Assembly (NCBI GenBank): GCA_947478465.1
Contig: CANJWH010000013.1
Coordinates: forward strand, 1-61,290
Source of the DNA: Bacteroidota bacterium
GTDB taxonomy: Bacteria > Bacteroidota > Bacteroidia > SXHM01
DNA: 61,290 nt
Reading direction: 5' to 3'
Shown: positions 1-11,546 of the stretch, piece after piece
Position numbering within the stretch: position 1 is the stretch's first letter
Layout: every line of letters begins with the position of its first letter
Position numbers and translations under genes: made by a program
The notes under the pieces: generated by a model
Told to the model about the DNA's origin: nothing
Databases searched by the model: none
Seen by the model: only the letters and a program-made list of their open reading frames with translations

Positions 1-2
1 AC

Positions 3-1175
3 CGTTATTTCCTTTCAGCGGGCTTATCAGTTGGTGTTCCGCTGCCGCTGGGTACCGGAGCCGATAAAAAAGCTGTTGCAGCGCAGGCTGATTTAATGCG
101 CTTTGATCAGAGAAATTCATCAGAACAACAGAATGTTGATTTGCTCAACACCGTTTATGAATACCGTTATAAATTAAAGCAGTACAATAATTTTGCTGAA
201 AAACATAAGAAGTATGAGGAGTTGCTGCGCATAGAACGTGTAAAAGAAAAGCTGCAATACTTTGAGTTTAACCCTATCTCGGCTTTAAACCTGCTTGACG
301 ATATGCTTTCCATAGAAGTGGAAATGCTGGATCTGCAACAGGAAATGTATCTGAGCCTGCTTGATATCGTAACCAAAACTCCGGGCACCGAAGCCATTAA
401 CGTTATTCAGCCAATAGCAAATGCTCAAACGAAAGAAAACAATAGCCAACCCTCAAGCCTTGTGAACGAAAAACTGGATAAAGCAATGTACATCTGGAGC
501 GAATCCCTTGCCAACCGCACCGATGCCTATATTGAAGAATACCTGAACCTTAACAATATTAAAACAGCGGTTATCAGCACCGGTAAAACCGATAAAGCCA
601 AAGCAGCTAAACTATTCAGCGTGTTGAAGGCAAGCGGTATCTCGGTTGAACTGATGATAGGCAGCAACAAACTTCTTTTCAATGCAAACCCTGCAGCGTA
701 TTTAGATTCGGCAACAGCAGGCCTTAACTGGTCTGACATTTCAGCATTACATCTGGATGTTGAGCCTCAGGCACTGGATAACTGGGAGAAAGACAAAACC
801 AGTCTGCTTGAAAAATATGTAAACCTGGTTAAGCAGGCTCAGGCTTATTGCAAATCTAAAAATGTAAAACTGAGTGTATCTGTTCCGGTTTTTTATCCCG
901 AAACTACTCTTACCGAAATTTATGCAGCCTGCGACAAGGTTTACATAATGGCTTATGAGCATACCGATGCATTCTTTATTATGAAAAAAGTAAAAGAAGA
1001 ACTGGCTATCAGTCAGGAAAAAACGGTAATTGCCCTGCGCGCCAAAGACTTTGGAACACGCAGCGAATTTGAGAAATTTTTAAATGAACTGAGCGTGGCA
1101 TTGAATACCAAAACATTTGCTCTCCACGATCTGGAAACATTTACAAAGCTTGACGAATTAAACTCCGGAAAATAA
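3..1175 (+). CDS. TolC-like outer-membrane protein fused to a glycosidase-like TIM barrel (5' partial)
   Basis: The reading frame is open from the left edge, so the true start lies outside the window; the first ATG at 96 is internal. The first visible residues form an amphipathic strand (GLSVGVPLPLG) followed by long helices, which resembles the second half of a TolC-family outer-membrane factor (barrel strand, then coiled-coil hairpin). After a linker at roughly residue 105-125 from the ATG at 96, a different domain begins. Strands such as ISALHLDVEP and DKVYIMAY look like strands 4 and 6 of a GH18-type (beta/alpha)8 barrel, with D221 and E223 in the position of catalytic acids. The gene precedes a HlyD-like adaptor by 24 bases and is the first visible gene of an exopolysaccharide gene run. 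The barrel could bind or trim the exported glycan. The TolC half is judged by pattern only and the fusion by the continuous frame; activity is inferred. Confidence 0.65.
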   Translation, partial: RYFLSAGLSVGVPLPLGTGADKKAVAAQADLMRFDQRNSSEQQNVDLLNTVYEYRYKLKQYNNFAEKHKKYEELLRIERVKEKLQYFEFNPISALNLLDDMLSIEVEMLDLQQEMYLSLLDIVTKTPGTEAINVIQPIANAQTKENNSQPSSLVNEKLDKAMYIWSESLANRTDAYIEEYLNLNNIKTAVISTGKTDKAKAAKLFSVLKASGISVELMIGSNKLLFNANPAAYLDSATAGLNWSDISALHLDVEPQALDNWEKDKTSLLEKYVNLVKQAQAYCKSKNVKLSVSVPVFYPETTLTEIYAACDKVYIMAYEHTDAFFIMKKVKEELAISQEKTVIALRAKDFGTRSEFEKFLNELSVALNTKTFALHDLETFTKLDELNSGK

Positions 1176-1199
1176 TTAATAAACTAAAAACCAAAAGTC

Positions 1200-2288
1200 T
1201 TGAATAGTATAGATTTTAAACAAAAAACCTCAGTTATCAGGGTGCTGAGTGACGAGAACGGTCGAAAAAGCTTCAACTGGGATCGTGTCATTTACATTGT
1301 GTTCCTTATCCTGTTGTTCGGCTTTTTAGCATATTATGCCTTCAACAAAATATTCTTTATCAAAGCCCAGGGACAGGTATCCTTTGAAAACATTGATATC
1401 CGCATTCCTGATGATTGCAGAATTCTGGAATATCAGGTTGCTGAGGATGATTCGGTAAACATAGGCGATTCATTGTTTATCTATTCGCTGGATGATGATA
1501 ATCTTAATGTGGGGGGAAATACTCTTGTGGTTGCTCAATCAGAAGAGACAGGTTTTAGTAATCAGCTTACCTGGATTGACAGAGAGAAGTTTACGTTGGA
1601 GAAGAAAATTGCAATGAACAACATTGATAAAGTTCGCGCAAAAGAATTACAGAAAAGTTTTGAAAACGAATTACAGCATTTTGAAAATGCCATCATTCTT
1701 GACGTGCTGCCAACCGACAGATATGAATATGCTAAAAGCGAGATACTGCGTCTTAAAACAGAAATAGCAAAGCTTGAATCAGAGAACAGACAGAATAATG
1801 CCTACATAGCTGAACTGAATGAACTTGCAGAAAAGCCTGTTGTAAAACAGATGGGTGCATCATCTTCGGGAAGCGGAAATGGTGGAGACGGAGAAACTAT
1901 ATTACCCCAGGTTTTTTATTCACCTATAAGCGGCAACGTAACAAGACTTTTTACTCACCAGTTTGAAGTAGCCCTTAAGCAAGATGTTATCATGTCTATT
2001 CACAGCGACCGCCCTATGTATATTAAGGCATTCTTTGAGCAAGAGGACATAGCATTTTTCAATGAAGGTGATATCGTTAATATTAAATTCCCTGATGGCA
2101 GAAGCAGCAAAGGTTTTGTAAAACGCTTCAATTACTCAACCTTCCAACTGCCAACAGAATTTCAAAAACGCTACGAGCCAACAACACGCACCGTGGCAGC
2201 TGATATTTTCCCTGTCAGCAAGGACGACTATGCACTTTGGAGAGGCTTTTATAAAATGAGCGTTACCATTACAAAATATAAATACTGA
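1200..2288 (+). CDS. HlyD-like membrane fusion (periplasmic adaptor) protein
   Basis: A short cytoplasmic tail is followed by one transmembrane helix at about residues 29-51 and a periplasmic part with a lipoyl-like half motif (DIRIPDDCRI), a coiled-coil hairpin at about residues 125-215, a glycine/serine-rich linker, the second lipoyl half (SPISGNVTRLF) and a beta-barrel segment ending near the C terminus. This is the layout of HlyD/AcrA adaptors. The most upstream start in frame is TTG at 1200; a stop lies at 1185-1187 and no ATG occurs nearby, so TTG is the likely initiator. It sits between a TolC-like gene and a GT2 synthase with no ABC, RND or MFS pump visible, so it probably couples the synthase to the outer-membrane channel, as Alg44 does for alginate. 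Family confidence is high; the polysaccharide role rests on context. Confidence 0.75.
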   Translation: MNSIDFKQKTSVIRVLSDENGRKSFNWDRVIYIVFLILLFGFLAYYAFNKIFFIKAQGQVSFENIDIRIPDDCRILEYQVAEDDSVNIGDSLFIYSLDDDNLNVGGNTLVVAQSEETGFSNQLTWIDREKFTLEKKIAMNNIDKVRAKELQKSFENELQHFENAIILDVLPTDRYEYAKSEILRLKTEIAKLESENRQNNAYIAELNELAEKPVVKQMGASSSGSGNGGDGETILPQVFYSPISGNVTRLFTHQFEVALKQDVIMSIHSDRPMYIKAFFEQEDIAFFNEGDIVNIKFPDGRSSKGFVKRFNYSTFQLPTEFQKRYEPTTRTVAADIFPVSKDDYALWRGFYKMSVTITKYKY

Positions 2289-2296
2289 AAAAGGAA

Positions 2297-3733
2297 ATGG
2301 CAATGAATACATCAACCGAAAACATAAAAGTAGTTGACCATAAAATCAACTACAACAATCTTGTCTTTTACGTAATAGACACTACCAACAGCATCCTGAA
2401 TATTGACCATACCATGGGTTACGATGCTCTTATTCTGGATGCATCTGATCCGGAGTATGCACGTATTGTGTTGAAAAAAATACGTTCGCATTACAATCCT
2501 GAGTTTTACCTCAAGCCTGTGTTTTTGCTTAATTTCAAAGAAACAAAAGACCCCTTGTTGAATAACATGCACGATGGGTTAATGACTTCTTATGATCAGG
2601 TGGTGACTATGTCTGAAACAGCAAAACGTATTTTCTTAAAAACTACTCAGCTTGATAATCAGCTTATTCCTTCTTTTGAAGGACAGACAGTAAAGAAGGT
2701 TTTGAATTACATGTACACCCGCGATATTCGTACACTGAAACCTATTGTTGATTTGAATTCAAGTATCGGTTATACTTATCCTGAATTGTCAATCAATTTT
2801 ACAAATACTGAAGAGCCGCAGGTACTTGAAATACTGGAATGGGCAGATCGCGAAGGTCTTATCTGGCCTGATTTTTACGAGCGTGTTTACCTGTGTAATA
2901 ATTGCAACAGCGGTGCTTTAAGCTATCGCGAGGTTTGTCCGCATTGTAACTCATCCAATTCAAAATCAGAAGATCTGGTTCACCATTTTCCGTGTGCCTA
3001 TATCGGACCAATTTCTGATTTTCAAAACAATATTGATAATTCACTCAACTGTCCAAAGTGTAACAAAACACTTCGCCACATTGGTATCGATTATGATAAA
3101 CCATCTGTAATTCACCATTGCAACAACTGCGACCAGAATTATCAGGATGCTTTTATTAAATCTAAATGCCTGTCTTGTGAAGATGACATTGATGTAAAAT
3201 ACCTTGTTCCAAGAACTGTAAATATTTACAAACTGACCAGAAAAGGACGTTCTGCTGCAACCAGCGGATTCCTTTCTTCAAGTCAGGAGGTAGATGATAT
3301 TTTTGGTACAATCAATATGCAGACATTGAAAATTATGCTGCATTATGAATTGGAAAAAGTAAAAGAATCACCTGCTCAAAAAACATCAATAGCGCTGGTT
3401 CATCTGGAGAACGTTTTTGAACTGTACAACAAAATTGGTAAAAAAGGAGAACGCAAACTACTTGAAGAGTTGGTAGCAGTTGTGAGAGAGAATATTAAAT
3501 CTTCTGATGTTATCGCTTTTGAAAGTTCGTCAACGCTTTACCTGATGCTTACTAATACAGCTTCAGAAAATGCTGAACAGAAATTGAAAAACCTGAGCGC
3601 TCTTACCGAAAACCTGATTAAGAAAAATTTTAACGGCTTTAAAGCAAATCTGCTTCATAAAGTTAAAATGCTTGACACCGATAAAAAGGCAGAGGTTCAG
3701 TTACAGGAACTTTCAAAAGACTTTTTTGCATAA
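2297..3733 (+). CDS. Regulatory protein: receiver-like N domain, zinc-ribbon CxxC region, degenerate GGDEF domain
   Basis: The 478-residue protein has no signal peptide or membrane helix and should be cytoplasmic. Residues 10-115 look like a diverged receiver domain (LVFYVID, YDALILDA). Residues 198-297 carry five CxxC pairs (C200/C203, C214/C217, C252/C255, C275/C278, C291/C294) plus C233, typical of zinc ribbons and resembling the TackOD1 output domain described next to receiver domains. Residues 340-478 match a GGDEF fold (LKIMLHYELEKVKES, SDVIAF, LYLMLTNT), but the GGDEF signature is replaced by ESSST at 409-413 and the I-site RxxD by KSSD at 401-404, so it should not make c-di-GMP. A ligand-sensing or scaffolding role like PelD is plausible. 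ATG codons at 2297 and 2303 compete; an AGGA at 2292-2295 is better spaced for 2303. Its stop overlaps the synthase start (TAATG), which implies coupled translation. Confidence 0.7.
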   Translation: MAMNTSTENIKVVDHKINYNNLVFYVIDTTNSILNIDHTMGYDALILDASDPEYARIVLKKIRSHYNPEFYLKPVFLLNFKETKDPLLNNMHDGLMTSYDQVVTMSETAKRIFLKTTQLDNQLIPSFEGQTVKKVLNYMYTRDIRTLKPIVDLNSSIGYTYPELSINFTNTEEPQVLEILEWADREGLIWPDFYERVYLCNNCNSGALSYREVCPHCNSSNSKSEDLVHHFPCAYIGPISDFQNNIDNSLNCPKCNKTLRHIGIDYDKPSVIHHCNNCDQNYQDAFIKSKCLSCEDDIDVKYLVPRTVNIYKLTRKGRSAATSGFLSSSQEVDDIFGTINMQTLKIMLHYELEKVKESPAQKTSIALVHLENVFELYNKIGKKGERKLLEELVAVVRENIKSSDVIAFESSSTLYLMLTNTASENAEQKLKNLSALTENLIKKNFNGFKANLLHKVKMLDTDKKAEVQLQELSKDFFA

Positions 3734-5040
3734 TGGATTATTTGGATGAATTCTTTAATTACATTTCATCTGTAAGTCCGGCTAAATTAGTTCGGGTATT
3801 CTGGTTTTTCTTCTTTTTTGAATTTGTCCGTTTCTTTCTTGTCGATTTTACAACAGTATTATTGTGGAAATTAACTGCAGTATTCCGCAAGCAAAGAGTT
3901 AGAGAAGGTCGCAACCTTTTCTGGGCTGAAAAACCTCTTATTTCTATTATTGTTCCCGGAAAAAATGAGGGGAAGCATATTTTTAAACTGGCCAATTCTC
4001 TTAAAGAGCAGACCTATCAGAACTTTGAACTTATTGTTATTGATGATGGCTCTGATGATGAAACCCGTACTATTTGCAACAGCTTAAAAAAGAACGGGCT
4101 TATTGATATTTTTCTTAGCAATGATGTGCGCGGAGGAAAAGCATCTGCTGCAAATCTTGGATTGCGTTACTCTTCAGGAAAATATATCATCCATATGGAT
4201 GCCGATTGCTCCTACGACAGGGATGCAGTAGAAAATATTATTGTGCCTTTTTATTACGATGAAAAATTAGGTGCTGTTGGTGGCGATGTTCAGGTTCGTA
4301 ACTACAGAGAAAGTTTATGTGCTTCACTTCAGGCAATTGAATACACCGATACTATTTCAATCGGAAGGATTTCGCAAAGCCAGTTGGGTATTTACAGGAT
4401 TATTTCAGGTGCATTTGGTGCATTTAAAAAAGACGCTCTTGACAGTGTAGGAGGGTGGGATATAGGTCCGGGACTTGATGGAGATATTACTGTTAAAGTC
4501 CGTAAAATGGGTTATGAAATCCATTTTGAACCAACAGCTATTTGTCAAACCAATGTTCCGGTAACATTTAAAGCATTGATTAAACAAAGATTGCGTTGGG
4601 ATAAATCACTGATCCGTTTTCGTTTAAGGAAGCACAGAGATGTATTCTATCCCAATGAATCATTCCGTATATCCAATTTTGTATCGTTTGTTGAAAATAT
4701 CACCTACAGTTTAGTACTTAACTTTAAATGGTATTTCTATTTAATCGATATGGTTCTGAATTTTACTTCGCGGTTGATATTTATCATTCCGATGAATTTT
4801 ATTCTTTACACCATCAATAACTATTTTAAGTTCATTGTATTTTCATTGTTCCGCCAACGAAAAAATGTAAAAGCTGAATACTTTATGCTCTACATGCCTT
4901 TGATGGCACTGTATTTTGGTTATTTCTTGCGTTTAGTAAGAACCTATGCTTACCTTCAGGAATTAATTTTCAGAAGATCTTATGAAGATAGCTGGAACCC
5001 TGAAAAGTCTTCGAGACAGGCAAAATCTTTAAAATTATAG
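3733..5040 (+). CDS. Membrane-bound GT2 processive polysaccharide synthase
   Basis: An N-terminal membrane segment (about residues 18-50) precedes a GT-A domain, and hydrophobic helices follow from about residue 310 to 410. All marks of a processive beta-glycosyltransferase are present: DD at 104-105 in IDDGSDD, DxD at 156-158 in HMDADC, an acidic GLDGDIT at 247-253 in the position of the TED/catalytic base motif, and QRLRW at 285-289 (QxxRW). This places it with the BcsA, PgaC and hyaluronan synthase-like enzymes that polymerise and translocate a glycan across the inner membrane from a nucleotide sugar. The substrate cannot be read from the sequence; the deacetylase at 7758-9884 suggests an N-acetylated sugar, as an inference. 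No PilZ domain is visible, so regulation may come through the degenerate-GGDEF protein encoded immediately upstream with a one-base overlap. Confidence 0.85.
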   Translation: MDYLDEFFNYISSVSPAKLVRVFWFFFFFEFVRFFLVDFTTVLLWKLTAVFRKQRVREGRNLFWAEKPLISIIVPGKNEGKHIFKLANSLKEQTYQNFELIVIDDGSDDETRTICNSLKKNGLIDIFLSNDVRGGKASAANLGLRYSSGKYIIHMDADCSYDRDAVENIIVPFYYDEKLGAVGGDVQVRNYRESLCASLQAIEYTDTISIGRISQSQLGIYRIISGAFGAFKKDALDSVGGWDIGPGLDGDITVKVRKMGYEIHFEPTAICQTNVPVTFKALIKQRLRWDKSLIRFRLRKHRDVFYPNESFRISNFVSFVENITYSLVLNFKWYFYLIDMVLNFTSRLIFIIPMNFILYTINNYFKFIVFSLFRQRKNVKAEYFMLYMPLMALYFGYFLRLVRTYAYLQELIFRRSYEDSWNPEKSSRQAKSLKL

Positions 5041-5082
5041 AACAAAAAAATTCTTCATTCGTATTGTGGTCTTTATAAGCGA

Positions 5083-7731
5083 ATGTTATTTAGGGTTTTT
5101 CCATTATTTTTTGTATTTATCTCTGCTCTTGCAAATGCACAGACCTTAAATGCTTTGCAGCTTTCATCACCTGCAGGATTTTATGCTGATTCAATTTATG
5201 TTACAATTTCATCTATAGATGATAACGTTGCAATCCGTTATACACTTAACGGTGATGAGCCTACTGAATCATCACAACTCTATACAGATTCAATTTTAAT
5301 TAAAAGCAGAATAGGGGAATTGGATAATTATTCAACCATTCCAACTAATCCGGGTTTTAATTACCCAATCAACGGCTATGATTCAATAAAAGCAAACACC
5401 CGTGGATGGTTGCCACCTTATACAGAGACATATAAATCAACGGTTTTAAAAGCCAAGGCATTTGGAAATGGTAATCTTTCAAGCCCTACAGTTGTTGCCA
5501 CTTATTTTATTGATCCGCTAATGAGCAGCAGGTTCTCTCTTCCTGTTCTTTCTTTAACAACAGATAGTGTGAATCTTTTTTCAAATGAAACAGGAATTTA
5601 TGTTTACGGTAATGACACAATTGAAGGTGGAAATTATAATATGCCAGATGCAGAAAGAGAAGTTCACATAGAGTTTTTCGAATCGGATGGCACGCTTGGT
5701 TTTTCACAAAATTGTGGAATTATTAATCATGGAGGTGGCGGGAAGCTTGCTCCTCAGAAATCATTTAAAGTTGTTGCGCGGTCATCCTATGGTTCTAATT
5801 CATTTGATTACCCATTGTTTACTGATAAGAACACCAATGAATTCAAGAGTTTTTTATTGCGAAACGGAGGGCATAGGCCGGATTGCTATCCAAGAGATGA
5901 CCTTGCAGGTCAAATTGTGAAGAATATGAATTTTGAAGTTCAGTACACACGTCATGTTATCGTTTTTATAAATGGCGAATATTGGGGAATACAAAGCATT
6001 AAAGACATTTTTGATGAACATTATCTGCAAAATAAGTACAATGTCAGCGATGCAGATGTGGCGGTGCTTGTTTATGACGCTATAGTTGATGATGGTTTGC
6101 CTACTGATAATCAGCATTATTTAAACATGCGGAGTTTTGCAGTTAATAATGATATGACTGATACAAATAATTACAATTACATCAACACCCAGATGGATAT
6201 TGAAAATTTTGTGGATTATCAGACATCTGAAATTTATTTTGGTAATGGCGACTGGCCTCATAACAATATAAAATTCTGGCGTAAGCGTATTCCTTCTTTT
6301 AATCCTGTTGCCGGTGTAAATCTTGATGGCCGTTGGCGCTGGATGATGTATGACCTTGATGCAGGTTTTGGAGGTGATTGTACAGGAATTTATTATGCAT
6401 ATAATTCATTATCTAAAGCAGTATCTCCTTCTACGGGGAATTACACACTTCTTCTTCGTTCACTTTTGGTAAGTAATAAATTCAATAATTTATTTATAAA
6501 CCGTTGCGCAGACCTTCTTAATACCGAGTTTCTTCCGTCAAGAGTTTCGGGTATTGCTGCCGGTACAAACAATGAAATTACTCCTGAAATGATGGAACAC
6601 GTAAACCGCTGGAAGTATCCTTCTGTTTCAACTAATCTTGCGAACAGAGCTTTAGAGGTACCTTCACTAACCAAATGGAATTCTATAAATAGCGGTCTTC
6701 AAACATTTATTAGCAGAAGGCCATCAAAAATACGTCAGCATTATATGGCTTATTTTTCATTGCCAGATACTGTTAATGTTTCTGTTAACGTTTCTGATAC
6801 TGCAGCGGGTAGAGTAAAATTCAGTACGCTTATTATTGATGAGAATACTGTTGGTATAACCGGCCCGGCTTACCCATGGACAGGAAAATATTTTACAACT
6901 ATTGAAATTCCGATTAAGGCAATGGCCAGACCGGGATACCGTTTTGTAAACTGGCTTAATACAAGTATTACAAATCCTGATACTGTTGTTGTTGTAAATG
7001 CCGACACTTCATTTACAGCTGTTTTTGAAGTTGACCCCAATTTTATTCCTTTTCATCATCTGTATATTAATGAACTGTCAGCTTCCAACACAAATAATGT
7101 AGCTGATGAATACAATGAATATGATGACTGGTTTGAAATATACAACCCTAATAATTTTGCCGTAGATTTAGATGGATATTATGTAACCGATTCCTTAAAT
7201 AATAAAACCAAATACAGGTTTGCAAGCGGAAACAGCAGAACCATTATTCCTGCAAACGGATTTATTATGATATGGGCAGATGAACAAAATCCGCAAGGTG
7301 TTTTGCATTCAACCTTTAAGTTGAATTCTGCCGGTGAGGAACTAGCACTTATTTTGCCTGATGGACATACTGTAGTAGATTCAGTTGTTTTATGGCCACA
7401 ATTAACTACCGATCACTCATGGGGAAGACAAACAGATGGAGACGAGACATGGTTTGATTTCAACTATACTACCCCGGGATTTTCAAATAATCAAACAGTA
7501 GGAATTGATGCGCCAATATCTGCTCTTGCATTTGCAGTATACCCTAACCCTGCAAAGAATACCGAGCAAATTTATTTTAATAAAGTTGTTTCTGTATTTA
7601 TTTACGATGCATTGGGACAAGAGATTTCTTCATCTATGAATATTCAGTCTTTTAATATATCCGCATTAAACTCGGGAGTTTATTTTATTAAAACAAATAC
7701 AGGAGAACTACTTAAATTTGTTAAGTTATAA
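5083..7731 (+). CDS. Secreted CotH-family protein with lamin-tail domain and T9SS type A signal
   Basis: A signal peptide (cleavage near ANAQ, residue 20) is followed by a chitobiase-C-like segment (YTLNGDEPTESSQLY, residues 53-67), a CotH kinase-like domain (about 150-540), a stretch like the bacterial InlB-type repeat (about 580-655), a lamin tail domain (INELSASN to about 800) and a T9SS type A tail with YPNP near residue 820. CotH landmarks are QKSFKV at 225-230, GEYWGIQ at 298-304, NGDWPHNNIKFWR at 388-400 and RWMMYDLDAGF near 419-429. CotH proteins of Bacillus are atypical secreted protein kinases. Here the protein should be exported by T9SS to the cell surface, where it might phosphorylate or organise matrix components. 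It lies 42 bases after the GT2 gene on the same strand, so co-expression is likely. Family assignment is firm; kinase activity and partner are unknown. Confidence 0.85.
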   Translation: MLFRVFPLFFVFISALANAQTLNALQLSSPAGFYADSIYVTISSIDDNVAIRYTLNGDEPTESSQLYTDSILIKSRIGELDNYSTIPTNPGFNYPINGYDSIKANTRGWLPPYTETYKSTVLKAKAFGNGNLSSPTVVATYFIDPLMSSRFSLPVLSLTTDSVNLFSNETGIYVYGNDTIEGGNYNMPDAEREVHIEFFESDGTLGFSQNCGIINHGGGGKLAPQKSFKVVARSSYGSNSFDYPLFTDKNTNEFKSFLLRNGGHRPDCYPRDDLAGQIVKNMNFEVQYTRHVIVFINGEYWGIQSIKDIFDEHYLQNKYNVSDADVAVLVYDAIVDDGLPTDNQHYLNMRSFAVNNDMTDTNNYNYINTQMDIENFVDYQTSEIYFGNGDWPHNNIKFWRKRIPSFNPVAGVNLDGRWRWMMYDLDAGFGGDCTGIYYAYNSLSKAVSPSTGNYTLLLRSLLVSNKFNNLFINRCADLLNTEFLPSRVSGIAAGTNNEITPEMMEHVNRWKYPSVSTNLANRALEVPSLTKWNSINSGLQTFISRRPSKIRQHYMAYFSLPDTVNVSVNVSDTAAGRVKFSTLIIDENTVGITGPAYPWTGKYFTTIEIPIKAMARPGYRFVNWLNTSITNPDTVVVVNADTSFTAVFEVDPNFIPFHHLYINELSASNTNNVADEYNEYDDWFEIYNPNNFAVDLDGYYVTDSLNNKTKYRFASGNSRTIIPANGFIMIWADEQNPQGVLHSTFKLNSAGEELALILPDGHTVVDSVVLWPQLTTDHSWGRQTDGDETWFDFNYTTPGFSNNQTVGIDAPISALAFAVYPNPAKNTEQIYFNKVVSVFIYDALGQEISSSMNIQSFNISALNSGVYFIKTNTGELLKFVKL

Positions 7732-7757
7732 TTATATGCATCTCCCTGTTCTTCGCC

Positions 7758-9884
7758 ATGCGCTATAAACAATCCTTTATTGGTAAAATTGAAATAGCTC
7801 TTGTTGTTTTCGTTCTACTCATATCGCAGTTTTCATCAGCTGAAATAATTGATTCAAGAACAGTTGCAGTGCTTGATCTTACAATAAACAATTCAGAAAC
7901 TTCTGATGTTGAATTGTATTCTATCAAACATATTTTAAAAGTTGCAGGCCTGCCTTTTATTGTAACAGATAATGTTGATTCCGCTATTCAATATCAAATT
8001 GTTATAACTTCTTCAAAACTGGAATCTTCAACATTGAATACTGTTGAAAAGGATTCATTGATTAGCTATGTTGCAAATGGAGGATGTTTAATTGCCCCAA
8101 GTGTAAGAGACCCTTATCTGTACTCGGTTTTTGGTATTTCTGACGATGTGAGTTCAACTTCTAACTTCAGTATGTCTTTTAATACAGGGCTTAATGATCT
8201 TTCGTTTAGATGGCTTAATGATACGCTTGAGCAAACTGTTAGCCTTGGAAATTCAGTGCAGTACACTACATTTTTAAATACACGCAATTATGTTACATCC
8301 GGTGCAACAATACTTGCAGTATTTAATGACTCAACAACAGCAATTACTAAATTCAATTATGGTTTAGGAAAAGCCTATGCTCTAGGCTTCTCATTCAGAA
8401 ATTTGATTACTATGAATCAGACAAACAGAGATTATAACGCACAAAGAATTTATTCTAATGGGTTTGAACCTACCAGTGATGCAATAATATTATTTATAAA
8501 GGCTATTTGTACTGAAACTATTTCAAATTCAGTTTGGCTGCATACGAGTCTTTTTGATAGTCATTCAACACTTATGATTACTCATGATATTGATGCAACA
8601 TCCTCTTTTGATACAATGCATTACTATTCAGATTATGAAAATTCTATTGGAATTTCAGGTACATACCTTATTACCACTCATTATCTGGATGATGGTTGTA
8701 TGGCTGATTATTTTATTCCATCAAACTATTCAAAAGTTCAGCAATTGCTTGATAAAGGACATAAACTAGCTAGTCATTCTGTAGGGCATTTCAACGATTT
8801 TGATGATGAAACGGTAGCTTCTTACGGAAATCTTGGAAATACTCCATCTAACTATCTTCCTTACGATTCATGCACAACTTACCCAACAATAGGTTCAACA
8901 GTACTTGGTGAGACTGAAGTTTCAAAAAATCTTCTCGAAAGTTTATTCGGAGTATCTATTCGAACATTTCGTGCAGGTTATTTGTGTTTTAATGACAAAC
9001 TTACCAATGCCCTTGATACACTTGGATACCAATATAACACAACAGCTTCCGCAAGTGATGTACTCACTAATTTTCCATATCGGGCACACAAAGACAGAAT
9101 AAGTAGTGGAAGTTTATCAAACGTATGGGAAATACCTATGACAATATCAGATGTGTTTCATGATGATTTGATGAGTGCAACAAATTATTCAGAAAAAGTG
9201 GCCATCTGGATGGATGTTATTTTAAGAAACAAAGCGAATTATGCTCCCAATGTTTTACTTATTCATCCTACGCGTTTGTTTAAATTACAGGCAGAACAGG
9301 ATTTGTTTAATCAGCTTCCGGATGATATGATGGTGTGTGATTTAGAAACGTATGCTGATTACTGGAAAGGCAGGGATAATATTGAGTTTAGAACAATATT
9401 GAATAATGATACATTGACCATTATTATTCCTCACAGCCTTTTGCCACTTGACTCTGCAATAAGTTTTGTTGTAGATAATGGGCAAAGTTTGGAGCTTATA
9501 AAAGCAGAGGATGACTTAGGAAATCCGGTAAGCATTATTCAATCTGAATGGGATGATAATGGCATAATTCTTCATTTTGGATATTTAACTCCATTATCCA
9601 TTAAAAATGAAAATATAGAGGGCGATATTGCAACTGTTACATGTTACCCCAATCCCTTTTCTTCGGAAGTTACAATTGAGATAAATCTAACCGAAAGAAA
9701 CAGAGTTAATCTTTCAATTAATAACTTGACAGGGCAACAGATAAAGCTATTTAACCAGGATTATCTTCAGCCTGGAACGTATCGTTATCAGTGGAACCCA
9801 TTGAATTTATCTGGGGGAATTTATGTTTGCAAGTTGAATGTTGGAGATAAAACATTCTTCAAAAAAGTGGTCTATACAAAATAA
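7758..9884 (+). CDS. Secreted NodB-like polysaccharide deacetylase with T9SS type A signal
   Basis: A signal peptide (to about residue 28) leads into a region resembling a class I glutamine-amidotransferase-like fold (about 35-250), then a NodB/WalW-type deacetylase domain (about 265-510). Catalytic marks are THDID at 275-279 (base and metal aspartates), HSVGH at 340-344 (metal histidines), RAGY at 405-408 and LLIHP at 500-504 (general acid histidine). The last 80 residues form a T9SS tail with YPNP and a terminal KKVVYTK. It follows the CotH gene by 26 bases and closes the exopolysaccharide gene run; the next gene is convergent, 15 bases away. PgaB and PelA are deacetylases that act on nascent exopolysaccharide, so an equivalent but surface-exposed role is inferred. 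The function of the amidotransferase-like region is unclear; it may only be a binding module. Confidence 0.85.
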   Translation: MRYKQSFIGKIEIALVVFVLLISQFSSAEIIDSRTVAVLDLTINNSETSDVELYSIKHILKVAGLPFIVTDNVDSAIQYQIVITSSKLESSTLNTVEKDSLISYVANGGCLIAPSVRDPYLYSVFGISDDVSSTSNFSMSFNTGLNDLSFRWLNDTLEQTVSLGNSVQYTTFLNTRNYVTSGATILAVFNDSTTAITKFNYGLGKAYALGFSFRNLITMNQTNRDYNAQRIYSNGFEPTSDAIILFIKAICTETISNSVWLHTSLFDSHSTLMITHDIDATSSFDTMHYYSDYENSIGISGTYLITTHYLDDGCMADYFIPSNYSKVQQLLDKGHKLASHSVGHFNDFDDETVASYGNLGNTPSNYLPYDSCTTYPTIGSTVLGETEVSKNLLESLFGVSIRTFRAGYLCFNDKLTNALDTLGYQYNTTASASDVLTNFPYRAHKDRISSGSLSNVWEIPMTISDVFHDDLMSATNYSEKVAIWMDVILRNKANYAPNVLLIHPTRLFKLQAEQDLFNQLPDDMMVCDLETYADYWKGRDNIEFRTILNNDTLTIIIPHSLLPLDSAISFVVDNGQSLELIKAEDDLGNPVSIIQSEWDDNGIILHFGYLTPLSIKNENIEGDIATVTCYPNPFSSEVTIEINLTERNRVNLSINNLTGQQIKLFNQDYLQPGTYRYQWNPLNLSGGIYVCKLNVGDKTFFKKVVYTK

Positions 9885-9899
9885 GATTCCCGGGGAATT

Positions 9900-11546
9900 T
9901 TAAAGCCCCAAAACTTCTGTCCCCTGCTCAAATACAATATCAACAGGGATTCCAAGTCCTGAAAGTTTATCTAATTCTTTTTGCAGGTCAGGCCCAATAC
10001 TTCCTTTTTCCTCCATAAGTTTTGTAACGCTATCATAATCACCATTGCCTTGCAGTGTAATTATTAAAGTAGAAAGCGAATTCATAGCTTCTTTCATTTT
10101 TTCAAAATCAACGCTGTAAGTTCCGGTAGCTGCATCGCGGGTAAATGCACCCTTCTCAGCAAAATAATTAAAGCGTAACATGTTTGCTTTACCATGTGCG
10201 CTGCTTGCTCCAAACCGTACCGAACGAAAAATACCCGCAAGAAAAGTAACATAGGTATCCATAACTTCACCTTCCTTTATCTCACCTTTCTCATATAGTT
10301 TGGTTTCCATGTAAAGGCCAAGAATATCAGCTTTACCTTCTTCAAGGGCCGAAAATTTATCTTTCAATGCTTCGCGAACTGAGCCTTTGCCATTAATGGT
10401 TTGCTTGATTCCTAAACCATGCGCTACTTCGTGAAACATGGTGTTGCCAAAGAATGCATCAAAGGTTATGTGTTTTCGTTGGTTTTCGGAAATAAGTGTG
10501 TTTGCAATGGGTACAAGAATCTTATCAAACTTTGCGCGCATGGCGTTTTTTAGTTGTGAACGTCTGGTTCCTTTTTTTACCTGAATATCTTCATCGTTTG
10601 GAAGATTAACCGCAATGGTTTTGCTTCCTGCATTGCAATCGCCAGCATAATAAACTACATCATATGCATTCAGTTCTGAATCTGTTCCCGGGCTTTCTTT
10701 CTTATATTTTGCATCAACAGGGAGTGAGGCTTGTAATTCAGGAAGAAATGATACGTAATGCTCTAATTTTTTGCTCCATTCTTTATCCTTGATAAAAACA
10801 TACGCTTCGTTAGATGCCTTGTATCCGTATATTTTGTCCTCATAGCTTTCTATCGGGCCAATTACAATGTCGATTCCGTTTGTTTTCATATCAAGCCATG
10901 CGTAATCGCTTGCTGTATAATCATCAGTAAGTAATGCTTCTGAGCGAAGTGTCAAGTATTTTTTTAGTCCGGCATCTTCAGCAAGTTCTGCAGCCTGCTT
11001 TAGTAGCTCTGCCGCTTTTTCTACATGTTCTTTATAAGCAATATGATATGGAATAGTAATCAGTTCACCTTTTTCGTTTCTACCCAATACTGTATAAAGA
11101 CTTTTTTTGTCATCGGATTTAAATGCTTCAAATTCTTCCTTAGTCATGTTGGCAGGATAGAAATTTGCTCCATCGGATTTTGCTCCGATACCTTCAACAA
11201 ATGAACTGTCGCCATTTAGTCTGTCCCATGGCCCATAGTTTATTTTCACTAATTCGCGTGTTGCTGAATCAGAAATGGTAGCAAGAAGAGAGTCTAAATT
11301 TCCATAAGCTTGTTTTTTGAAAATCTCATTCATTTCTTTTGCAGCTTCAATAAAAAGCGCAACCATTTTCTTTTCATTAGCACTCAAATGGCTAAGATCT
11401 GAAGTGAGTTTTACCGGAGCATAAATCTTTAATCTTTCTGCATTTGGGTTTGATTTTTCAGTTTCTTCTGCATGTTTCTGATTATTAGAACAAGAAAATA
11501 TGGTGAATAGGAAGCAACAGGTAGTAAGGAGTTTTATAGATTTCAT
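9900..11546 (-). CDS. Lipoprotein zinc peptidase related to dipeptidyl-peptidase III (M49-like)
   Basis: The N terminus is a lipoprotein signal with lipobox FSCS (cysteine at about residue 19). The body resembles the dipeptidyl-peptidase III family: a zinc motif HEVAHG near residue 370 and a downstream EEGKADILG that supplies the third zinc ligand (family pattern EExxAD). Classical M49 enzymes have HExxGH with an extra residue; this protein has plain HExxH followed by G, as in the DPP III-like domain of plant NUDT3-type proteins, so substrate range may differ. It is probably anchored in the outer membrane and processes short peptides. A TAnnTTTG box lies on the minus strand at 11572-11579, 25 bases ahead of the ATG, so it may be transcribed on its own. 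Family call is good; dipeptidyl-peptidase activity is not proven. Confidence 0.75.
   Translation of the reverse strand: MKSIKLLTTCCFLFTIFSCSNNQKHAEETEKSNPNAERLKIYAPVKLTSDLSHLSANEKKMVALFIEAAKEMNEIFKKQAYGNLDSLLATISDSATRELVKINYGPWDRLNGDSSFVEGIGAKSDGANFYPANMTKEEFEAFKSDDKKSLYTVLGRNEKGELITIPYHIAYKEHVEKAAELLKQAAELAEDAGLKKYLTLRSEALLTDDYTASDYAWLDMKTNGIDIVIGPIESYEDKIYGYKASNEAYVFIKDKEWSKKLEHYVSFLPELQASLPVDAKYKKESPGTDSELNAYDVVYYAGDCNAGSKTIAVNLPNDEDIQVKKGTRRSQLKNAMRAKFDKILVPIANTLISENQRKHITFDAFFGNTMFHEVAHGLGIKQTINGKGSVREALKDKFSALEEGKADILGLYMETKLYEKGEIKEGEVMDTYVTFLAGIFRSVRFGASSAHGKANMLRFNYFAEKGAFTRDAATGTYSVDFEKMKEAMNSLSTLIITLQGNGDYDSVTKLMEEKGSIGPDLQKELDKLSGLGIPVDIVFEQGTEVLGL

Follow-up and report, generated by a model that had tools for sequence, protein, structure and literature searches.

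The window, by which we mean the whole stretch of 61,290 nucleotides analysed here (contig CANJWH010000013.1 of the Bacteroidota bacterium assembly GCA_947478465.1), begins with an operon of six genes, four of which probably make a sugar polymer in the inner membrane and export it via a TolC-type tunnel under the control of a TackOD1 protein. These four encode a TolC-like outer-membrane channel fused to a TIM-barrel domain, a HlyD-type periplasmic adaptor, a predicted cytoplasmic control protein with a TackOD1 domain, and a membrane glycan synthase of glycosyltransferase family 2 (GT2). The remaining two encode accessory proteins. All six open reading frames (ORFs) are collinear on the + strand and span positions 3-9884. 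The first-pass annotation, which had seen here a candidate new system for synthesis, export and modification of an exopolysaccharide, gave spacings of 24, 8, -1, 42 and 26 bases between them, and these were reproduced exactly. Its observation is confirmed as real and is larger than was visible from the window alone, and its interpretation as a whole is partly supported. Gene order, conservation, co-occurrence, family membership and motifs are observations of this analysis. Since the window starts at the first base of the contig (C13), the first gene is open at its 5' end and lacks its 5' part; a search of the own assembly, which is 91% complete, did not bring up the N-terminal part at another place. 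Extension of the locus to the left, as the annotation had suggested, ends with this contig, and the loci of relatives supplied the complete first gene as well as the left side.

Conservation of the operon in Bacteroidota

A search with gene 3 led to seven loci. Among 395 genomes of the class, TackOD1 scored over its cut-off in 22, with one match each. The order TolC-HlyD-TackOD1-GT2 is visible in 19 of these 22 loci, and in three of the 19 one end gene is cut by the end of the contig, namely TolC in the window and in G004, and GT2 in G245. The contigs of G005, G006 and G248 end inside the unit; their visible parts agree with the order, and they were left out of the full-order count. In a phylum sample, TackOD1 was found over cut-off in 12 of 395 genomes, two of them already known, which added ten new genomes with 11 loci. 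HlyD, TackOD1 and GT2 stand in this order in all 11 and TolC in ten, the stretch fetched for G453 having stopped short of the TolC position. TackOD1 matches under the cut-off, nine in the class and seven in the phylum sample, were dropped before counting, and two such places that were opened (G349 and G608) contain no core gene. One contig is shared between the class set (G068) and the loci found with gene 3 (L008). The first-pass annotation had named absence of the gene combination from related genomes as a reason to give up its proposal; the combination recurs in them.

A GT2 profile at E<=1e-70 matches 23 of the 395 class genomes, which are the same 22 and G109, where the match starts at base 2 of a contig and which was counted for GT2 only. 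The weakest of these matches has an E-value of 5.8e-171, so that at this threshold the GT2s form a discrete family. With the HlyD profile (E<=1e-25), 20 genomes are matched, all within the 22, and in the two without a match, G006 and G248, the contig ends there. Hence every mismatch in the co-occurrence of TackOD1, GT2 and HlyD is a gene at or past the end of a contig. Linked members served to build both profiles (A2 and A4), so that these counts are a test for unlinked copies and not a blind one, and at most four GT2 and five HlyD candidates were scored per genome. The co-occurrence counts over the 395 class genomes place the linkage of GT2, HlyD and TackOD1 beyond chance.

The unit varies between HlyD and TackOD1, where L102-L105 have one or two extra genes and L106-L111 a small receiver-like gene. 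In L105, the extra genes include one for a DUF4114 protein of 656 amino acids (L105:2828-4795), located between HlyD and a sugar dehydrogenase; genes of similar size are present in L103 and L104 of the same genus, of which only that of L105 was scanned. On the contig G554:C116, two diverged operon copies (L102, L110) lie on opposite strands at a distance of about 15 kb; a gene of the size of a sugar dehydrogenase is part of one copy, and a separate receiver-like gene of the other. Directly after GT2 and on the same strand, three loci of another family (L106, L107, L109) have ORFs of 398-426 amino acids with no Pfam match at E<=0.001.

The putative glycan synthase and the HlyD-type adaptor

The synthase gene (3733..5040, + strand) overlaps the stop codon of the preceding gene, and its product matches the GT2 Pfam family with 94.3 bits (cut-off 23.3). 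It has a DAD motif at residue 156, QRLRW at residue 285 and hydrophobic segments in its N- and C-terminal parts, and PgaC_IcaA is the best NCBIfam model for it and for six relatives. With the domain, the QRLRW motif, the hydrophobic segments and the PgaC-like profile, this GT2 may be a membrane-embedded processive synthase. Its score of 184 bits with the PgaC equivalog model, whose cut-off is 422.3, falls so far short that it does not qualify as a PgaC equivalog and that a PgaC-type linkage and sugar are tentative. The CelA model gave only 23.6 bits. In the GT2 tree, 28 linked GT2s and one GT2 of Sinorhizobium medicae share one branch (support 100/97), with PgaC of Escherichia coli, an IcaA from a staphylococcus and seven further GT2s outside it. 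That the 28 TackOD1-linked GT2s form a clade by themselves was rejected (p-value of the approximately unbiased test, p-AU, 0.006), because the S. medicae GT2 falls among them. Within the own genome, the next-best GT2 match reaches 62.9 bits versus 825.9 for the GT2 of the operon.

The S. medicae GT2, which had been taken as an outgroup, is located on a plasmid (L155:2866-5171), unannotated in the record used, and is followed at once by a HlyD-like gene. No TackOD1 was seen in the 7.1 kb read around it. Its identity as NodC was considered and rejected (102 bits versus a cut-off of 550).

The GT2 could instead make a lipid-linked or peptidoglycan-related glycan and no exported polymer, with the TackOD1 protein as a scaffold unrelated to export. 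Scores far under the listed equivalog cut-offs would fit this, as would a small second GT2 gene, which is found just upstream of TolC in G068, G135, G245, G334 and L007 (Pfam-scanned in G135 only). However, the QxxRW motif is present in all 28 linked GT2s used in the tree, the best profile is that of a processive synthase and the linkage to HlyD is constant, so that we regard this alternative as very improbable and keep to an exported polymer.

The adaptor gene (1200..2288, + strand) has a TTG start. Its product has one N-terminal hydrophobic segment (residues 24-54) and a HlyD_3 match of 24.2 bits (cut-off 22.2), and the profile comparison names EmrA (4tko, E 6e-5) as nearest solved relative, which makes it an adaptor of the HlyD/EmrA type.

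The TolC-like channel and its TIM barrel

What the window holds of the first gene (3..1175, + strand) is the C-terminal part of the TolC-like channel and the TIM barrel, the latter at about 490-1160. Full-length relatives have 881-886 amino acids; the gene is complete in L006 (886 amino acids) and also in L008, there with 742. Of 18 aligned members, 13 match OEP, the TolC family, at E<=0.1. The annotation's call of a TolC protein is therefore upheld through the relatives and is not demonstrable from the truncated gene by itself. Its call of a glycoside hydrolase found no significant Pfam match in the window, and what stands for it is the predicted TIM barrel in the protein of L007. The structure model of this protein (6 alignment rows) contains an eight-fold strand-helix repeat at 468-686, with block means of the predicted local distance difference test (pLDDT) of 73-92 over 471-690. 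The top match of this barrel in Foldseek is the chitinase 5jh8 (E 8e-6), and the first 50 matches include several enzymes of glycoside hydrolase family 18 (GH18). LDVEP and MAYE stretches are conserved after strands 4 and 6 of the barrel, positions at which GH18 enzymes presumably carry their catalytic Glu and Tyr/Asp.

Several points weigh against a channel with a built-in hydrolase. Five of the 18 aligned members have no OEP match, and that of L006 lies under the Pfam cut-off (20.6 versus 22). The TolC half of the L007 model is of low confidence, with block means mostly <60, and the Foldseek matches of the barrel are weak even at best and mixed with unrelated TIM barrels. In G202, G499, G543 and the first copy of G554, the protein either is much shorter or has a TolC match that stops ahead of the TIM barrel, and the barrel is dispensable insofar as these four relatives do without the full form.

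In two full-length proteins of the window's genus (L006:6222-8879, L005:805-3447) and in G047, a YCF48/BNR-like N-terminal stretch precedes the channel part.

Absence of a pump gene

The left side of the locus is visible in 17 class loci, where the neighbour of TolC is divergent in eight and on the same strand in nine. The nine same-strand neighbours are NodB, small GT2, GT9, YCII or LytTR genes. Four of the left neighbours were Pfam-scanned (L048, L051, L054, L056), and similarity served to identify the NodBs and the remaining small GT2s. Among the relatives found with gene 3, L006 has its left neighbour on the other strand and L008 a small GT2 upstream of TolC on the same strand; L007 comes from another collection. 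Neither an ATP-binding cassette (ABC) nor a resistance-nodulation-division (RND) pump is the same-strand left neighbour of TolC in any of the 17 loci, a statement that covers the nearest neighbour and leaves the identity of divergent ones outside the assessment. A pump gene missing just left of the window was rejected on the nearest neighbours in these relatives. Pfam also recognised no inner-membrane pump among the operon proteins of the window. The claim that the operon does without an ABC, RND or major facilitator superfamily (MFS) pump has thus held, and the view of GT2, HlyD and TolC as a conserved unit that has no pump gene to itself is supported.

Two cases run counter to it. In G248, GT2 is succeeded at 23 bases by a gene for an ABC ATPase, and a divergent set of an MFS transporter, an outer-membrane gene and a HlyD gene lies alongside the GT2-HlyD-TackOD1 triad of a Methylocystis plasmid. 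HlyD and TolC proteins normally partner ABC, MFS or RND pumps, and EmrA, the nearest solved relative of the adaptor, is one which we take to be the partner of an MFS pump. All of this would suit efflux or type I secretion with an inner-membrane pump encoded elsewhere, in which the GT2 is a neighbour that glycosylates cargo or envelope. The constant partner is however the GT2 and not a pump, as is evident from the near-complete co-occurrence over 395 genomes, the adjacency in two phyla and the lack of a pump beside TolC in the 17 loci, and we consider efflux or type I secretion quite improbable compared with export driven by the synthase.

The predicted TackOD1 control protein

The third gene (2297..3733, + strand) encodes a predicted cytoplasmic protein with a receiver-like N-terminal domain, a TackOD1 zinc ribbon (2684-3235) and a degenerate GGDEF fold (about 3293-3616). 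TackOD1 (PF18551) scores 171.8 bits (cut-off 32) and is matched in all 18 aligned members, and the cysteines C200, C203, C233, C252, C255, C291 and C294 are invariant in 21 alignment rows. The first-pass annotation had described a zinc-GGDEF protein; the GGDEF part of this description stood, and it had missed the strong TackOD1 match beside a receiver-like domain. The GGDEF match in Pfam is weak (16.8 bits, under the cut-off of 23.8), yet the degenerate GGDEF domain is supported by the gene 3 profile, which finds diguanylate cyclases at residues 329-463 (3ign, E 2e-7).

The annotation had also likened the logic of the system to that of Pel with its control by cyclic di-GMP (c-di-GMP), which the following findings do not bear out. 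The GG(D/E)EF motif is present in none of 18 Bacteroidota rows and none of 21 mixed rows, the window included. At the I-site the window has KSSD, with K replacing the R of RxxD; four of the 18 Bacteroidota rows of alignment A1 have RxxD, and the rows from the further phylum loci in which the GGDEF domain is present, four in number, all lack it. Thirteen of the 32 genomes with TackOD1 over cut-off were searched for GGDEF and PilZ proteins, with positive controls in 8 and 5 of 14, respectively. GGDEF proteins over cut-off were found in one carrier genome, G003 of the window's genus (two matches, 3% contamination), and PilZ in none. The degenerate GGDEF protein is thus present in hosts without a recognisable diguanylate cyclase (12/13 tested), and Pel-like c-di-GMP control is unlikely in the window's lineage. 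In the gammaproteobacterial relatives, whose three rows all have RDTD at the I-site, c-di-GMP is plausible as the signal.

We read the domain order as receiver-TackOD1-GGDEF, with a receiver that appears degenerate in the window. In Roseibium, Pfam places a receiver ahead of TackOD1 (54.8 bits, L088), and a receiver pattern before TackOD1 is seen by alignment in L106, L107 and L095. The separate small gene of L106-L111, six loci of one other family, matches the N-terminal domain of the window's protein with E-values of 8e-16 to 2e-20; the one such gene that was scanned has no Pfam match. A structure model of the TackOD1 protein (mean pLDDT 42, 8 rows) was too poor and was used neither for the fold nor for a check of the receiver. 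Another two-component link is found in G261, where a gene for a LytTR response regulator (L056:14113-14889) precedes TolC by 7 bases in the same orientation.

Loci on plasmids of Proteobacteria and Archaea

Phyla outside Bacteroidota were sampled via plasmid records only. A protein search found TackOD1 in 20 plasmid records, 15 bacterial and five archaeal. Thirteen of the 15 bacterial loci were opened, and in all 13 TackOD1 is followed by a GT2 and a HlyD-like gene, although the HlyD match in Methylocystis is weak (E 2e-5) and the TackOD1 reading frame of Alisedimentitalea is split over two annotated genes. Of the five archaeal loci three were opened, and neither a GT2 nor a HlyD of this kind is present there. 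When the GT2 of the window was compared with plasmids (best 60 of 822 records), 14 of the 15 TackOD1-bearing records held the 14 highest bit scores, and the GT2 of Photobacterium ranked lower, behind a GT2 of Levilactobacillus.

A plasmid of Aeromonas caviae has TackOD1, GT2, TolC and HlyD in one run. Its TolC protein has 694 amino acids, and the alignment of its C-terminus with the TIM-barrel part in a profile comparison (E 9e-4, probability 23) is merely suggestive. In Methylocystis, a TolC gene follows 1.1 kb after the HlyD-like gene. The other 11 of the 13 proteobacterial loci show no TolC beside the triad, in gene tables of PLSDB that are incomplete and with one stretch that has no table, and this counts against export through TolC. 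It would suit an arrangement like that of alginate or Bgs, in which the GT2 has the HlyD-type protein as its co-polymerase, the polymer exits by an unlinked route and the TolC-like protein mainly carries the hydrolase domain. Alg44 is described to have a periplasmic membrane-fusion domain and to bind Alg8 (PMC8461298), and rhizobial BgsB to have a HlyD-like domain (PMC9495663). TolC is, however, present in the Aeromonas operon and in all Bacteroidota loci where the left side can be seen, and the relatives whose TolC match stops before the TIM barrel have retained the TolC part. Hence a mere co-polymerase role is rather unlikely, and a HlyD-type protein that connects the synthase with TolC remains our preferred reading.

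Accessory and neighbouring genes

Downstream of the synthase, the fifth gene (5083..7731, + strand) encodes a protein with a CotH-like kinase domain (126.7 bits, cut-off 23.8), chitobiase C-terminal-like and lamin-tail domains and a sorting domain of the type IX secretion system (T9SS). The sixth (7758..9884, + strand) encodes a NodB-type deacetylase domain (Polysacc_deac_1, 24.0 bits, cut-off 23.1; HDID and HSVGH motifs), also with a T9SS sorting domain. The T9SS tails (Por_Secre_tail) score 38.6 and 40.1 bits, respectively (cut-off 27). These calls of the first-pass annotation and those of GT2 and HlyD each lie over the Pfam cut-off in the window. Its placing of CotH and NodB among the parts of the system itself, however, did not survive the comparison, which was made in the 22 class loci: CotH was seen only in the window's genus and is absent even there in G003, and NodB adjoins the core in five loci, in two of which (G046 and G047, other families) it lies upstream of TolC. 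From their distribution, CotH and NodB are taken as lineage-specific, optional add-ons outside the core. In G001, the CotH ORF beside GT2 (L061:5363-6520) has only 385 amino acids versus about 882 and may be shortened or interrupted. On the right, the operon is bounded by a convergent gene on the - strand (9900-11546) for an M49-type (dipeptidyl peptidase III-like) peptidase.

Proposed product and mechanism

The hints on the product converge on a polymer of the N-acetylhexosamine type. PgaC_IcaA is the best model for the GT2, if far under its cut-off, a NodB-type deacetylase domain is adjacent, and the TIM barrel resembles GH18. In G543, a gene between HlyD and TackOD1 is closest to the UDP-GlcNAc 6-dehydrogenase TviB (470 bits, cut-off 592), and L102, L103 and L104 have genes of similar size, which were not scanned, at the same place. 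A single protein of 1135 amino acids in Prevotella nigrescens (L157:754-4158) fuses GH18, NodB-type deacetylase and GT2 domains, which are the activities proposed for the operon of the window.

We consider it fairly likely that a polymer containing N-acetylhexosamine is exported through HlyD and TolC, driven by the synthase and gated by TackOD1, where polymerisation, product, coupling to TolC and the role of TackOD1 are what we infer. The GT2 would polymerise a PgaC-, chitin- or PNAG-like chain (PNAG, poly-N-acetylglucosamine) and thread it through its own membrane channel. On the periplasmic side the HlyD-type adaptor would take over the chain and couple the synthase to the TolC channel, and the GH18-like TIM barrel fused to the channel may trim the chain at the exit or clear it. 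The TackOD1 protein in the cytoplasm would turn the synthase on or off by contact. Its input may be phosphorylation of the receiver in those relatives that have kept one, c-di-GMP at the I-site in the gammaproteobacteria, and another signal in the window's lineage. The T9SS-exported NodB and CotH proteins would act as lineage-specific modifiers. Judged from sequence, the mechanism as a whole is plausible.

Comparison with known systems

The published systems are compared here as described in parts of the cited papers. The outer-membrane exit of synthase systems is a beta-barrel with a tetratricopeptide repeat (TPR) protein, and outer-membrane polysaccharide export (OPX) proteins as well as composites of OPX and beta-barrel also occur (2022; PMC9601211). 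The outer-membrane gene of the operon is TolC/OEP-like instead of such a beta-barrel/TPR translocon, and Pfam recognised no TPR family or outer-membrane porin over cut-off among the six operon proteins.

Maeda et al. (2018) reportedly put forward a model of cellulose secretion by XcsAB-TolC in cyanobacteria. This path from a synthase via HlyD to TolC is called unvalidated, and its genes do not form one operon and are scattered in T. vulcanus (PMC12430437). Both systems combine a GT2 synthase, a HlyD-like adaptor and a TolC channel, with a glycan hydrolase alongside and without a pump (PMC12430437). They differ in that XcsA is a cellulose synthase with PilZ (PMC12430437), whereas the GT2 here is PgaC-like, has no PilZ match and is accompanied by a separate TackOD1 protein. 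Moreover, all four genes here are in one operon, with the hydrolase-like domain fused to TolC. Adaptor and channel agree with the model, and a cellulose-type GT2 with a PilZ or PCR domain is lacking. In rhizobia, the GT2-HlyD pair BgsBA makes a mixed-linkage beta-glucan, and GT2 and HlyD-like protein share an operon there as well (PMC9495663). BgsA is however a cellulose-synthase-type enzyme whose own C-terminus binds c-di-GMP; no TackOD1 is named in the part of the paper used, and the word TolC is absent from its main text (PMC9495663). PMC5567048 contains no mention of bgsB, HlyD or TolC and was set aside. By these comparisons, novelty without precedent, as the first-pass annotation had implied, does not hold, since the synthase-HlyD-TolC path has been modelled (PMC12430437) and GT2-HlyD pairs are known from rhizobia (PMC9495663). 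In our analysis the cyanobacterial XcsAB-TolC model, unvalidated as it is, appears as the closest precedent.

The alginate system similarly has a GT2, Alg8, with a partner bearing a periplasmic membrane-fusion domain, Alg44, and is controlled post-translationally, but this control is by PilZ and c-di-GMP, and a periplasmic scaffold with AlgK and AlgE is present (PMC8461298). The degenerate GGDEF domains of PelD and BcsE, which include an I-site (PMC8461298), resemble the control protein in fold, and its gammaproteobacterial relatives retain RDTD at this site. The KSSD of the window differs from the intact RxxD of PelD type, and the operon scans yielded no further Pel component. Of the PNAG systems (PgaABCD, IcaADBC), the synthase provides the closest GT2 model, and PgaB by its annotation also has hydrolase and deacetylase activities, but neither PgaA, PgaB nor PgaD was recognised in the operon scans and the GT2 lies outside the PgaC/IcaA branch. 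In open-access literature no description of the operon was found by titles and the starts of abstracts, and TackOD1 was found by name only in PMC5847659. There it is a Cys-rich output domain behind receivers in archaea and also in some bacteria, with a function called obscure (PMC5847659). In bacteria it is here fixed beside a glycan synthase, in contrast to the three archaeal plasmid loci examined, of five, which have no such synthase; the bacterial TackOD1 branch thereby gains a fixed genomic context.

In our reading, the operon belongs to a known kind of machine, synthase-dependent export, from which it departs in its exit and in having a new control protein. Tentatively, as a possibility that we would not call probable, it could represent a further general route for polysaccharides across the outer membrane of Gram-negative bacteria, in addition to the OPX, beta-barrel and composite exits: a synthase-adaptor-TolC machine with a built-in hydrolase in at least two phyla, whose synthase would be switched at the protein level by receiver-TackOD1 proteins and in which Bacteroidota would have lost the c-di-GMP input and kept the GGDEF fold. 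If this is true, TackOD1 would be an output domain for glycan synthases and belong to a bacterial two-component branch that acts on polymer synthesis and not on transcription. The three parts proposed for cyanobacteria are locked here into one small operon, which makes the path testable in culturable carriers.

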